Assembly (NCBI GenBank): GCA_017617525.1 | Contig: JAFZWA010000028.1 | Span: forward strand, 62,001-126,000 | Direction of reading: 5' to 3' | Length of the DNA stretch: 64,000 nucleotides | From: Clostridiales bacterium | GTDB taxonomy: Bacteria; Bacillota; Clostridia; Saccharofermentanales; Saccharofermentanaceae | Part shown: piece by piece, positions 42,712-49,054 of the stretch | Layout of the letters: each line of letters starts with the position of its first letter | Numbering within the stretch: position 1 is the stretch's first letter | Notes under the pieces: model-generated | Seen by the model: the letters and a program-made list of their open reading frames with translations, nothing else | What the model was told of the DNA's origin: nothing | Database searches by the model: none | Translations under genes and position numbers: made by a program

Positions 42712-42888
42712 AATAATCCTCCTACTTACTTTAATTATTTACTGCTTTTGATTATAGTCCCTTTTACACGATATGGAGCAGGGTTTTTCTTAAAAACGGA
42801 AAAATGTCCTATTTCGTAAAGAAAAGCACCATGTTTGCGATAGAAGGACAGTGGGCGCGTCCGGTTGGCGTAAAAGAGTTTTTAGATG

Positions 42889-42919
42889 TAAAATCATATT
42901 GTGATCGCAAGTGGCGATC
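42889..42919 (+). promoter_or_regulatory. nagA promoter -10 and leader dyad
   Basis: TTGGCG (42865-42870) and TAAAAT (42889-42894) are 18 bases apart. GATCGC-AAGTG-GCGATC (42903-42919) is a perfect 6-bp dyad that ends just before the ribosome binding site, so it could be an operator or a hairpin over the site. Confidence 0.45.
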
Positions 42920-42935
42920 GGGAAGGACAACGAAT

Positions 42936-44099
42936 ATGCGGCTGAATCATGTAGATCTTGTAGATGCGGATTTTTCTCTTCAAAAAGATATGACGATGAC
43001 CGTGGATAACGGACGTATTTCTGCTATCGCAAAAGAGATCCTTTCCGTTCCTGCCGATGAGGACGAATATGACCTTTCCGGCATGATCCTGATCCCCGGG
43101 TTTATCGACCTTCATATACACGGCGCGATGGGCGCGGATACCTCAGACGGTACGGTCGAAAGCCTGTCGAAGATCTCCTCGTATCTCGCCTCTAAAGGTG
43201 TTACTTCTTTCTGCCCGACAACGATGATGATCCCGAAGGAAGACGTTCAGAGAGTTCTTCTTTCCGCGGACCATTTCAAGAGGGAAGAGAGCGGAGCAAG
43301 AGTTTTGGGCGTGAGACTGGAAGGTCCTTTTCTCTCGAAAGAAAAGTGTGGCGTCCAAAATACCGACTATGCCATAGATCCTTCGATGGAATATGTTCAG
43401 GAGATCCTTTCAGGTTTTTCCGAAGATCTGATATCTATCATAGATATCGCGCCGGAGCTTCCCGGGAGCTTCGACTTTATCACGAAGATGAAAGAAAAGT
43501 ACGTTCTTTCCTGCGCGCACACGGCGGCTCCGTATCAGACTTGCCGTGACGCGATCAAGACGGGACTTCGTCACGCGACGCATCTTTTTAACGCGATGAA
43601 TCCGCTGGGACACCATGAGCCCGGCGCACCGGGAGCTCTTCTTGAGGTTCCGGAAGTTACTTGTGAACTGATCTGTGACGGTATGCACGTGCATCCGGCG
43701 CTTTTAAAGATCGCTTTTACCGTACTTGGTGAAGATCGGGCGGTGGTCGTTTCAGATGCCATGCGTGCCGCAGGAATGCCGGACGGTCAATACGATCTCG
43801 GCGGTAAAGTGGTCAATGTCATATCCGGTAGAACGGATTTCGGTGATGGAAGACTTGCGGGTTCCACGACGGATATTCACGCGGAGTTCCTTAATCTTCT
43901 GAAGATCGGAATTCCCATGCGCACCGCGCTGAAGGCATGTACGCTGAATCCGGCAAGAGTACTTAATATCGACGGGGATACCGGTACGCTCGAGATCGGA
44001 AAGTTCGCGGATATGGTTGCTCTGGATAAGAACAATAGTGTCCGAAAAGTATGGGTCAAGGGAAAACTTGTTTATTCTTTTGAAGAAGGGAAAGAGTAG
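42936..44099 (+). CDS. nagA: N-acetylglucosamine-6-phosphate deacetylase NagA
   Basis: 387 residues from ATG 42936 after GGGAAGGA. The frame runs back to 42804 but that part does not resemble NagA. FIDLHIHGAMGAD binds metal, RLEGPFLS, SCAHTAAPY and HATHLFNAMNPLGHHEPG are family motifs, and VVSDAMRAAGMPDG carries the catalytic Asp. It removes acetate from GlcNAc-6-phosphate in the cytoplasm, feeding amino-sugar recycling. A Crp-like gene follows seven bases after. No nagB is in the window. Confidence 0.95.
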   Translation: MRLNHVDLVDADFSLQKDMTMTVDNGRISAIAKEILSVPADEDEYDLSGMILIPGFIDLHIHGAMGADTSDGTVESLSKISSYLASKGVTSFCPTTMMIPKEDVQRVLLSADHFKREESGARVLGVRLEGPFLSKEKCGVQNTDYAIDPSMEYVQEILSGFSEDLISIIDIAPELPGSFDFITKMKEKYVLSCAHTAAPYQTCRDAIKTGLRHATHLFNAMNPLGHHEPGAPGALLEVPEVTCELICDGMHVHPALLKIAFTVLGEDRAVVVSDAMRAAGMPDGQYDLGGKVVNVISGRTDFGDGRLAGSTTDIHAEFLNLLKIGIPMRTALKACTLNPARVLNIDGDTGTLEIGKFADMVALDKNNSVRKVWVKGKLVYSFEEGKE

Positions 44100-44106
44100 A
44101 TAAGAA

Positions 44107-44781
44107 ATGAGCAAGGATAAAAGAACAGAAGTATCTATCTTGTTTTTGGGTTTAAGTCCTGCAGAAAAGGAGGAGTGCCAGGCGCTTTTCCGAGCGAAAG
44201 ACCTTGTGAAAGGTGAACTCATCGCGTCTGAAGGAGATCTTTGCAATGGCCTGATCATCATCGAAGAAGGTGAGGCGGCAGCCCAGAAGTACACGCATTC
44301 CGGAGAGTATTCGACACTTCGTATCTTAGAGCACGGAGATGTATTCGGCGAGGACCAGATCCAGGAGGAGGACGGGCGCTATACTTCTACTTTGGAAGCA
44401 ATCACGGATGTGTCACTGTCATTTATATCCCAGAACAATCTGTTCTCCCTCGTTGAGAAGTTCCCGACGATCCGTGAGGGCCTCTGGAAGCTGCTTTTGC
44501 AAAGGATCAAACAGTCTGATGAGAGGGTGATCCTTCTTTCCCAGAAGAGTGTCAGATCGAAGATCTCGTTTTTTCTTCTGCGTCTTTCTGAAAAGCAGCA
44601 GAAGGCCTGTGTTACGCTTCCGGGATCCCGAGAAGTAGTGGCCAAGTTCCTTTCGATCCCTCGTCCGTCGTTTTCCCGAGAGTTATCGGCGATGGAAAAA
44701 GATGGGATACTCTCACTTTCGGGGAAAATGGTCACGATCCTGGATAAAAGTTCCTTACAAAGAGAGATCGGCGAGATATAA
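44107..44781 (+). CDS. Crp/Fnr-family transcriptional regulator
   Basis: 224 residues. Residues 10-130 are a cyclic-nucleotide-binding-type beta roll (GELIASEGDLCNGLIII, LEHGDVFGEDQI), and residues 150-215 a winged helix (SREVVAKFLSIPRPSFSRELSAMEKDGI). No phosphate-binding RxA motif of Crp or FNR-type cysteine cluster is clear, so the ligand is unknown. The start MSKDKRTEVS has little ribosome binding site of its own; the gene follows nagA by seven bases and is probably coupled to it. It may control amino-sugar use, but this is inference. Confidence 0.88.
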   Translation: MSKDKRTEVSILFLGLSPAEKEECQALFRAKDLVKGELIASEGDLCNGLIIIEEGEAAAQKYTHSGEYSTLRILEHGDVFGEDQIQEEDGRYTSTLEAITDVSLSFISQNNLFSLVEKFPTIREGLWKLLLQRIKQSDERVILLSQKSVRSKISFFLLRLSEKQQKACVTLPGSREVVAKFLSIPRPSFSRELSAMEKDGILSLSGKMVTILDKSSLQREIGEI

Positions 44782-44833
44782 GGCGTTTCCGGAGCGATGC
44801 CTTTCGAGCGGTTCGCCAAGAGCGTGCCATCTA

Positions 44834-44842
44834 TGATATAAT
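44834..44842 (+). promoter_or_regulatory. Extended -10 promoter of the cdaA fusion
   Basis: TGATATAAT is an extended -10 (TGn plus TATAAT at 44837-44842), about 30 bases before the start codon, with no strong -35. Confidence 0.6.
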
Positions 44843-44872: not shown

Positions 44873-46309
44873 ATGTTCGAGAAATTCACAGATTTTATCC
44901 GTGAAGTTTTTTCCAGTTTGGACAGCGGATATCTGTTCTTTGGCGGCCCGCTGGATCTCGTTCGCTATGTTATTGATATCATCCTTGTTACATTCGTTCT
45001 TTATAACATCCTGAAGATCATCCGCGATACCAGAGCCTGGCAGCTTTTAAAGGGCGTGCTCCTGATCCTGGTATTTATTCTGTTCTGCAGTTTCCTCGGT
45101 CTGGAAATGGTCGGATATATCTTCAACAAACTCCTGTATATCGTGGCGATCCTGTTTGTTGTTATCTTCCAGCCGGAGCTCCGTCATGCGCTTGAGACAG
45201 TAGGACTTAAATCATTCTCGTCATTCCAGAGCGCGATCATAAATGACGATTCCGAGGATCAGCTTCGTTATGTTTCCATGGTCGATGAGATCGTCAGTGC
45301 CTGCACCGAGATGAGCAGGACATATACAGGCGCGATCATGCTCCTGGAAAGATCCACAAAACTCGGTGAACTTCTGAAACAGGAAAATGTCGTCCGTCTG
45401 GATTCTTCAGTAACCAATTCCATGCTCCAGTCGATCTTCTATAAAGGCTCTCCGATGCACGACGGTGCCCTCCTTATCCGTGACGGAAGGATCATCGCGG
45501 CGAGATGTCATGTTCCGCTCTCCGAGACGTTCCACATGATCGAGCGTTATGGTACAAGACACAGAGCTGCAGTCGGCGCGAGTGAGATCGGTGACACGAT
45601 CGCGGTCGTTGTTTCCGAGGAAAGAGGCACGATGTCGATCGCTGTTGACGGTACTCTTTATGAAATGAAAGACGGTCAGGATCTTCGTAAGAACCTTCTT
45701 TATCTCCTGGGTCTAACTTCCGGAACCAGCAAGCTTACGATCAGAAACAAGAAGCACAATAAGAAGAACGGCAAGAAGGCAAAGGTCGCGACATCTTCTG
45801 CCGAGCCGATAACTGCTTTTTCTGTTGCCGCCTCGAATGACGAGTATGACAGCGAGCGCGACGAAGAAGCGATGCCGGTCGTCGCAAGAAAGAAGACAAA
45901 ACAGAAGAAAGGCAAGCGCTCCAGAAACGCGCTTCTGCTTCTGGTATCATTCTTGTTCTCGCTTATGCTCTGGATGTATATCCAGGTAACTACAAACCCG
46001 GTTACCGAGAAGTCTTTCTCGCTTCAGCTTCAGTATGAAAATGACGCCGTTCTGAAGGAAAAGAACCTGGCGGTCAAGTATCCTACGGAAAATGTTAAGG
46101 TCCGTCTGATCGGTAGGAAGAGCGATATGGATGATCTGACTTCATCTGATCTGTCTGCTTATCTGGATCTTTCCGAGATCGAATCTACCGGATCCGTAAG
46201 ACTCAAGGTAAATGTCAAGTGTGATGAACGTATCTACTACCGTGTTGAGATGCAGAATCCGACAGATATCCCGGTATCTGTTTATTCACGTGAATCAGAT
46301 GAGGAATAA
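44873..46309 (+). CDS. cdaA: Diadenylate cyclase CdaA fused to a CdaR-like YbbR domain
   Basis: 478 residues, against about 275 for CdaA. Residues 26-100 hold three membrane helices, and 115-285 the DAC domain with MHDGALLIRDG (Asp197-Gly-Ala) and TRHRAAVGASE (Arg229-His-Arg), the two active-site motifs. A basic linker follows (285-350), then a fourth membrane helix (351-372) and an extracellular YbbR-like domain (375-470). In other Firmicutes cyclase and CdaR regulator are separate neighbouring genes (cdaA-cdaR-glmM). Here they are one protein, so the regulator is covalently tied to the enzyme. It makes c-di-AMP from two ATP at the membrane. GlmM is not adjacent; nagA and a Crp-like gene are upstream. 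Confidence 0.93.
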   Translation: MFEKFTDFIREVFSSLDSGYLFFGGPLDLVRYVIDIILVTFVLYNILKIIRDTRAWQLLKGVLLILVFILFCSFLGLEMVGYIFNKLLYIVAILFVVIFQPELRHALETVGLKSFSSFQSAIINDDSEDQLRYVSMVDEIVSACTEMSRTYTGAIMLLERSTKLGELLKQENVVRLDSSVTNSMLQSIFYKGSPMHDGALLIRDGRIIAARCHVPLSETFHMIERYGTRHRAAVGASEIGDTIAVVVSEERGTMSIAVDGTLYEMKDGQDLRKNLLYLLGLTSGTSKLTIRNKKHNKKNGKKAKVATSSAEPITAFSVAASNDEYDSERDEEAMPVVARKKTKQKKGKRSRNALLLLVSFLFSLMLWMYIQVTTNPVTEKSFSLQLQYENDAVLKEKNLAVKYPTENVKVRLIGRKSDMDDLTSSDLSAYLDLSEIESTGSVRLKVNVKCDERIYYRVEMQNPTDIPVSVYSRESDEE

Positions 46310-47653: not shown

Positions 47654-47665
47654 TGAGGATTGAAT

Positions 47666-49054
47666 ATGAACGGTTCTGAAGAAAATAAGCCGAAGAGACA
47701 GGATGATAAACCAATTCAAAAAGGGGTGCCGGATCTTCGTGATTTTATGAACCAGTCGAATGCCGCGAATGATAAAGACGCGGTGGATATCCAGAGCCTG
47801 ATGAACGAGATTCGCCGGGTTCCATCTTCGCGCATGGCAAAACCACAACCGATAAATCCGGCTCAGCAGCCGCAGCAGGCACGCCCGACGCAGCAACCGC
47901 AACAGCCGCAGCAGGCACGCCCGGCGCAACAGCCACAGCAGACTCAGAAGCCGGCGGCACCAAAGCCTGCCTCTCAGCCTGTTTCTAAACCGGCACCGCA
48001 AGCAGCGCCCCAGCCTGCTCCATCCGTAAAAGCAGCTCCTGCCGCGCCGTTAAGACCCGGTTCTCAGGTAAGATACGAAAGACCGGAAGTCGATGATGAC
48101 GACGATGATGAGGAGACACCGGTACAGGTCCGTCGCTCCCAGATCAGCAGCGCCAGAAGAAAGCAGATCGAGGCAAGACGCCGTCGCGCTGTAATTATCA
48201 TTATTGTGACTTTTGTCCTTATTCTTCTTGCGGTCGGACTCGGTATTTACTATCTGGTCACACACCTGACTTCAAAGTCGGGCGAAACACAGACAACTTC
48301 CGCGACGACAGTTACAACGTCTTCGGAAACGACACCTGTTTCCGAGGAGTCTGAAACGACGACAAGTGAAACGACAGAGCCTGAGGCTACACCTACTCCT
48401 GCCGTAACACCTTTCCCGGCAGGCGGACCGAGCCTTACCGGATACTGTGTTGTTATCGACCCGGGCCATCAGGCTGTCGCGAACACGGATCCTGAATCCA
48501 TGTCCTCGTCTATGGGCGGATCGAAGGATCGTTCTTCTCAGGGTTATACCGGTGTAGTCACAGGAACAGATGAGTCCGAGATCAATCTCGAAAACGCACT
48601 TCTGCTCAAAGAATATCTCGAGTCACTTGGCTGCGAAGTCTATCTGACAAGAGAGACGAATGATGTCGATATCTCCAATAAAGAGCGTGCGGAATTTGCC
48701 GTATCCAAAAATCCGGATCTGTTTATCCGCCTTTACTGCAACGCGGCCAATGACTCGAAGACCAATGGTATTGAAGTCATTGTTCCGAATTCCGGCGAGT
48801 ATGCTTCCCAGGTGCCTACATGGGGCGAGAATCTCGGAAAGCAGCTGTCGACATCAACGGGCAGTGCTTTTAACGGATGCAAGGCAAGCGAGAAGTACAG
48901 CGGACTGAACTGGGCGAACTCCGTTCCGTCGTTCATGATCCGTATGGGCTATCTGACAAACAGTGATGATGAAGCGAATCTTATGAACGAAGAGTATCAG
49001 TTCAAGCTTTGTCAGGGCATCGCTCAGTTCATCGTTACCATGCCTCAGCATTGA
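47666..49054 (+). CDS. Amidase_3-fold membrane protein lacking zinc and catalytic residues
   Basis: 462 residues from ATG 47666 with TGAGGA upstream. Residues 1-165 are Gln/Pro/Ala-rich and disordered inside the cell, with a membrane helix at about 175-197 and a Thr/Ser linker outside. Residues 255-460 resemble Amidase_3 (N-acetylmuramoyl-L-alanine amidase). VVIDPGH (His268) and Glu305 are kept. But the second zinc histidine is Tyr357 in FIRLYCNA, and the catalytic glutamate is Arg426 in FMIRMGYLTN. The two substitutions make hydrolysis unlikely. It may bind peptidoglycan or regulate another enzyme. Confidence 0.83.
   Translation: MNGSEENKPKRQDDKPIQKGVPDLRDFMNQSNAANDKDAVDIQSLMNEIRRVPSSRMAKPQPINPAQQPQQARPTQQPQQPQQARPAQQPQQTQKPAAPKPASQPVSKPAPQAAPQPAPSVKAAPAAPLRPGSQVRYERPEVDDDDDDEETPVQVRRSQISSARRKQIEARRRRAVIIIIVTFVLILLAVGLGIYYLVTHLTSKSGETQTTSATTVTTSSETTPVSEESETTTSETTEPEATPTPAVTPFPAGGPSLTGYCVVIDPGHQAVANTDPESMSSSMGGSKDRSSQGYTGVVTGTDESEINLENALLLKEYLESLGCEVYLTRETNDVDISNKERAEFAVSKNPDLFIRLYCNAANDSKTNGIEVIVPNSGEYASQVPTWGENLGKQLSTSTGSAFNGCKASEKYSGLNWANSVPSFMIRMGYLTNSDDEANLMNEEYQFKLCQGIAQFIVTMPQH

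Follow-up and report, generated by a model that had tools for sequence, protein, structure and literature searches.

A CdaA-type diadenylate cyclase fused to an N-terminal segment of CdaR in the order Saccharofermentanales

The diadenylate cyclase CdaA (DacA) of Firmicutes works only as face-to-face oligomers and GlmM inhibits it by blocking these (PMC8573169, PMC10243994, PMC6368335, PMC8316131, PMC9259658). The YbbR protein CdaR contacts CdaA through the transmembrane domains (PMC10243994; PMC8573169), and its effect differs among species, with both activation and repression reported (PMC8573169, PMC6368335, PMC8316131, PMC9259658): in Porphyromonas gingivalis, levels of c-di-AMP changed 2.4-2.6 fold when cdaR was deleted (PMC9259658), and in S. 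aureus there was no clear CdaR effect and no regulatory role could be demonstrated for YbbR (PMC6368335). The structural literature states that the mechanism of CdaR control over CdaA is unclear (PMC8573169), and the reported effects conflict. Bacillus subtilis has the genes in the operon cdaA-cdaR-glmM-glmS. Fusions of CdaA with CdaR are described for some streptococcal strains, as large fusion proteins (UniProt A5LQF8, E1M7C3 and V8IIN0; PMC10243994, a 2023 review).

Here we analyse a fused gene from a window of 64,000 nucleotides (the whole stretch of DNA that was examined), which belongs to a draft genome of 64 contigs that is 95% complete. The features of the region are listed in Table 1. 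The reading frames of the window show one uninterrupted frame from an ATG to a stop. Its N-terminal part matches the CdaA_N model of Pfam at residues 31-102 (40.5 bits, cut-off 23.8), with helices at residues 26-52, 54-75 and 78-98 in the predicted structure, and is followed by a DAC domain with a Pfam match (116.9 bits, cut-off 27) and intact catalytic motifs (DGA at 197-199, RHR at 229-231). The protein passes the NCBIfam equivalog model for CdaA (TIGR00159; 190.2 bits, cut-off 188.8), and in a fold search the cyclase part of the model matches solved CdaA structures with a TM-score to target of about 0.9. By its domains and motifs, the gene product is thus a CdaA-type diadenylate cyclase, predicted to synthesise c-di-AMP from ATP. 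With CdaA of Firmicutes it shares CdaA_N, DAC, both motifs and the TIGR00159 match; in contrast to CdaA, it adds a linker, a fourth membrane helix (TM4), a YbbR domain and clade-fixed changes at the dimer surface and in the adenine pocket.

Table 1. Features of the fused gene and of the genes upstream (positions in the window, residues of the fused protein)
Feature	Position	Strand	Basis
nagA (N-acetylglucosamine-6-phosphate deacetylase)	42804..44099	+	TIGR00221, 288 bits, cut-off 225.65
Crp/Fnr-type regulator gene, directly upstream of the fused gene	44107..44781	+	PF00027, PF13545; orthologues adjoin the fused gene
Promoter-like site (TG, TATAAT) 30 nt upstream of the start codon of the fused gene	44813..44842	+	pattern match only
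Fused gene: CdaA-type diadenylate cyclase and TM4-YbbR (CdaR N-terminal part), 478 aa	44873..46309	+	single open frame; Pfam/NCBIfam matches; same frame across the order
CdaA_N domain with membrane helices at the N-terminus, residues about 26-102	44948..45178	+	PF19293 at residues 31-102; hydropathy; model helices
DAC catalytic domain, residues 142-261	45296..45655	+	PF02457; fold match to CdaA structures
Lysine-rich cytoplasmic linker with predicted disorder, residues 283-345	45719..45907	+	pLDDT below 50 over 283-345
Fourth membrane helix (TM4), residues 352-374, conserved LWxYIQxTxNP end	45926..45994	+	hydropathy; alignment
One YbbR domain, predicted to lie outside the cell, residues 377-472	46001..46288	+	PF07949; model; fold matches

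Hydropathy and the structure models agree on a layout of N-terminal membrane helices and one further helix at about residues 352-374. A YbbR domain had been expected C-terminal of residue 350, and the domain search finds it at residues 396-449 (PF07949), with 24.1 bits just above the cut-off of 22.3. The YbbR identity holds despite this weak score, because the fold matches solved YbbR domains: TM4 and tail modelled alone (130 residues) reach a pLDDT of 93.5, and the top fold matches of the tail are 5hqh, 3lyw, 4qdy and 2kq1, with a probability of 1.00. The first of these, 5hqh, is a YbbR domain of Listeria lmo2119, which we take to be the CdaR gene of Listeria. In the full-length model (pLDDT 73.5, pTM 0.40) the cyclase and YbbR folds are confident and the linker (283-345) is disordered; at this pTM the relative placement of the domains is unreliable, and a packing of TM4 on TM1-3 is unsupported by the model. 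The extracellular placement of the YbbR domain is predicted and follows from the helix count only. Promoter-like sites such as the one in Table 1 are no commoner in the region than in shuffled sequence. The preliminary description of the locus had read membrane helices, an intact DAC domain, a fourth helix and a YbbR domain in one frame, and Pfam, hydropathy and models all bear this out. It had also called the protein a fusion of CdaA with CdaR; a CdaR-like part is indeed joined, consisting not of full CdaR but of its membrane helix and first YbbR domain only.

The fusion of CdaA with a CdaR-like part in one chain is real, as confirmed by related genomes, which are mostly ruminant-gut assemblies. 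Matches to the fused gene occur in 159 of 162 genomes from the order. Every locus read whole (45 for the alignment and 14 more, the latter from four families) has both halves in a single frame, and a split cdaA/cdaR form was not found among them. The order's incomplete matches sit at contig ends where checked. The joined frame recurs in independent assemblies at 97% down to 38% identity and is present in two single-contig genomes (G037, G040). dN/dS between close relatives is 0.00-0.08 in every part of the gene, linker and YbbR included; it rises to about 0.4 for the linker in more distant pairs and is 0.03-0.16 for the YbbR domain, indicating purifying selection. The values between close relatives, far below 1 across the join, argue against an assembly artefact. 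The preliminary description had considered that a frameshift or an assembly error might have joined two genes, and the draft state of the window genome, with its 64 contigs, would be compatible with such an error. However, the same joined frame in many independent assemblies from four families, two single-contig genomes among them, and the codon-level conservation across the join leave this explanation with practically no chance of being correct; an assembly join is ruled out by the relatives.

Outside the order the two proteins are separate. In a survey of 393 genomes of the class, non-order cyclase frames are about 276-395 residues long among the matches listed, three long readings excepted. 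We opened 58 non-order loci of the class (56 distinct): all have separate cyclases and all but three a match to a separate CdaR-like frame. Long open frames of G168, G238 and G332 in the class, as well as eight suspicious loci from a sample of 149 genomes of the phylum, were considered as further fusions, but when they were read the genes proved to be separate and merely adjacent. Open-frame length from a search listing alone is thus no proof of fusion. One locus with separate cdaA and cdaR (L070, contig G018:C64) was taken as foreign, because the fused gene is also present in that genome, which shows 6% contamination. The metagenome-assembled genome UBA1193 has two copies of the locus (L036 and L045), with one cyclase frame broken in two, probably a strain mixture. 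In one non-order family (L086, L087) a separate CdaA with a C-terminal extension (374-395 aa) is followed by a separate CdaR.

Within the fused proteins, the best-conserved part outside the cyclase is TM4 with the YbbR junction: W367, Q371, N375 and P376 are invariant or nearly so in the alignment, and the LWxYxQxxxNP end is kept while the linker varies. The linker is hypervariable in both length and sequence, with about 48-116 amino acids between the end of DAC and TM4. At about 48-51 residues, the shortest linkers (L065-L067, L069) have roughly the combined length of the end of CdaA and the start of CdaR, and expansion in other families has brought the linker to 116 residues. In the cyclase, RHR is present in all 45 fused proteins. 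DGA is found in 37 of these and in all 58 separate cyclases; DGG replaces it in the remaining eight (L037, L043, L079, L073, L074, L030, L081, L072).

In an alignment based on a profile of the fused proteins, the part from TM4 on corresponds to residues 4-160, approximately, in separate clostridial CdaRs. The separate CdaRs are mostly 308-517 amino acids long and have three to four YbbR matches each (five scanned) versus one in the window protein, in which about 100 residues follow TM4 and a full-length CdaR with all YbbR repeats is absent. Together, this indicates that the fusion retains the membrane helix and the first YbbR domain of CdaR and that the rest was lost. What it has in common with CdaR, by alignment and fold, is a YbbR domain preceded by one N-terminal membrane helix; the differences are the absence of a separate protein and the single domain. 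The YbbR sequence has drifted to the point that, at E 0.01, the Pfam model no longer recognises it in 6 of 24 fused proteins.

When a tree is constructed from the cyclase part alone, a single branch (SH-aLRT 100) splits the 45 fused from 56 separate proteins. The tree is unrooted; it shows one change, for which a gain in the order is the natural reading. Where the genes are separate, most cdaR frames overlap with the 3' end of cdaA, 4 nt being a common overlap, and in one non-order genome (L083) a single TAA separates cdaA from cdaR, which share a reading frame; from such borders, fusion is a short step. It is likely that a stop was lost, or a frameshift occurred, at the overlapping cdaA-cdaR border in the ancestor of the order, and that the later YbbR repeats were lost as well.

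The absence of glmM had struck the preliminary description as a surprise. The gene is indeed not beside the fused gene in the window; it is located on another contig of the same genome, and in 18 of 28 order loci examined with flanks it lies directly downstream of the fused gene (two of the ten loci without adjacent glmM end before that point). The window's genus has lost the linkage. In both loci checked (L059, L075) glmS follows glmM, as in Bacillus. Compared with the B. subtilis operon, most other loci of the order thus keep glmM next to the fused gene, whereas the window's genus lacks it there and has nagA and crp in front of the fused gene. Downstream of the window gene lies an opposite-strand gene for a UDP-galactopyranose mutase-like protein. 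In a single-contig relative (L054, 8571-10082) a DUF1846 protein follows the fused gene at the place where others have glmM. An N-acetylmuramoyl-L-alanine amidase-type gene is found near the fused gene in several families (L063, 3726-4928; L065, 9768-11069; window, 47660-49054), and its recurrence is another link to wall metabolism.

The nearness of nagA and a Crp-like gene, likewise noted as surprising, is in fact conserved synteny in the order. nagA ends 7 nt before the crp-like gene and adjoins crp in relatives too. The window's genus, and many loci from two further families, carry a Crp/Fnr-type gene directly upstream of the fused gene; several more loci have it about 6 kb upstream, together with nagA. 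Loci with the orthologue directly before the fused gene are L053, L054, L056, L057, L060, L061, L063, L064, L071, L079 and L082. CRP contacts cAMP through Arg82-Ser83. In the crp-like protein of the window these positions are, by eye, Tyr-Thr, and because of this replacement its ligand is probably not cAMP.

Profile searches of the 95%-complete window genome gave one DAC hit and one YbbR hit, both in the fused gene. A separate cdaR elsewhere, which the preliminary description had raised, was not found: there is no other YbbR hit, and thus no separate YbbR gene, in this assembly. PgpH-type 7TM-HD proteins are a usual c-di-AMP phosphodiesterase family, and one is present in the genome. A search of the genome for the c-di-AMP riboswitch RF00379 found none.

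Our main reading, to which we give a probability of roughly 60%, is that the sole detected diadenylate cyclase is a CdaA joined to the N-terminal part of CdaR, with TM4-YbbR controlling assembly through membrane contacts and the linker serving as a tether. In the cytoplasm, face-to-face pairing of two DAC domains would allow the conversion of ATP into c-di-AMP. TM4 would pack on TM1-3, much like the contact proposed between free CdaR and CdaA, and the YbbR domain outside the cell may report the state of the envelope by altering the assembly of the membrane domains and hence of the DAC domains. The long, floppy linker would be a tether that allows this contact and fixes the 1:1 ratio, rather than a signalling rod; the fixed ratio proposed earlier follows from the single chain. 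Disorder of the linker, its more than twofold length range and the near-invariance of TM4 and junction favour packing of TM4 on TM1-3 over a signal along the chain, the direct route from wall to c-di-AMP synthesis suggested in the preliminary description. The sign of control in the fused protein is unpredictable, because CdaR effects are inconsistent across the species studied.

One chain, or one message, could end up as two working proteins by proteolysis in the linker or by an internal start, and the fusion would then be functionally meaningless. The linker is long, lysine-rich and disordered and so cleavable in principle, but it keeps its frame across the order, with no split form at the loci read whole. 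Possible start codons inside the gene that have a ribosome-binding motif occur at scattered, unconserved places, and the window gene has none. An internal start giving free CdaR was dropped, as the fused genes examined have no conserved start with a ribosome-binding site before TM4, and we consider two separate working proteins quite improbable. The YbbR part may also serve localisation or stability only, anchoring the cyclase near the wall or holding the oligomer together and passing no signal. This would fit the retention of just one of three to four repeats, the drift of the domain beyond the Pfam model in a quarter of the 24 proteins and the S. aureus result (PMC6368335). Against it stand the purifying selection on the YbbR domain, the conservation of TM4 and the junction and the changed c-di-AMP levels of the P. 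gingivalis cdaR deletion (PMC9259658); we regard it as unlikely, if still worth bearing in mind.

A further alternative is that the fused clade changed the control of the enzyme more deeply, with substitutions at the inactive-dimer surface and in the adenine pocket that compensate for the permanently attached regulator. In comparison to separate clostridial CdaAs, several residues are fixed in the fused proteins (B. subtilis numbering, with the dimer-interface residues related to the alignment by hand-matched numbering): N161 is replaced by S or Q, P165 by K, N166 by G, T167 by S, A185 by R, Y187 by H, L188 by V and T225 by R. N161 is, with L169, L150 and K153, a named residue of the CdaA dimer interface (PMC8573169), and Y187 stacks on the adenine in Listeria CdaA. 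Yet the fusion sits on one branch, and with one origin, ancestry alone could explain the same pattern; position 187 already varies in separate clostridial CdaAs (F, Y, V, L). Loss of the GlmM-contact residue R126 was discarded as a consequence of the fusion, since the Arg is missing in most separate clostridial CdaAs too. A deeper change of the enzyme is therefore rather doubtful. We are equally hesitant about a wider version, in which the whole order would use a cyclase permanently bound to its regulator, c-di-AMP output would be set by TM4 and the one YbbR domain, the inactive-dimer surface would have been rebuilt (N161, N166, T167), control of the oligomer would differ from that of free CdaA and CdaR, and the Crp-like neighbour may share the circuit.

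The idea of a CdaA-CdaR fusion is already known from streptococci; what appears to be new is the order-wide form with a single YbbR domain. The same two proteins are in one chain in both cases, but the streptococcal fusions, known by description only (PMC10243994), occur in some strains, whereas here the fusion is fixed in the order with one YbbR domain. Such a form was not found in the literature searched, which did not include the survey by Galperin (2023, 'All DACs in a row') that is devoted to DAC architectures. A natural one-chain, single-YbbR version of the system is a compact target for structure work and for mutational tests of the helix contacts. Even a lone YbbR domain suffices for selection to retain it, and the fusion is a clean evolutionary marker for the order.
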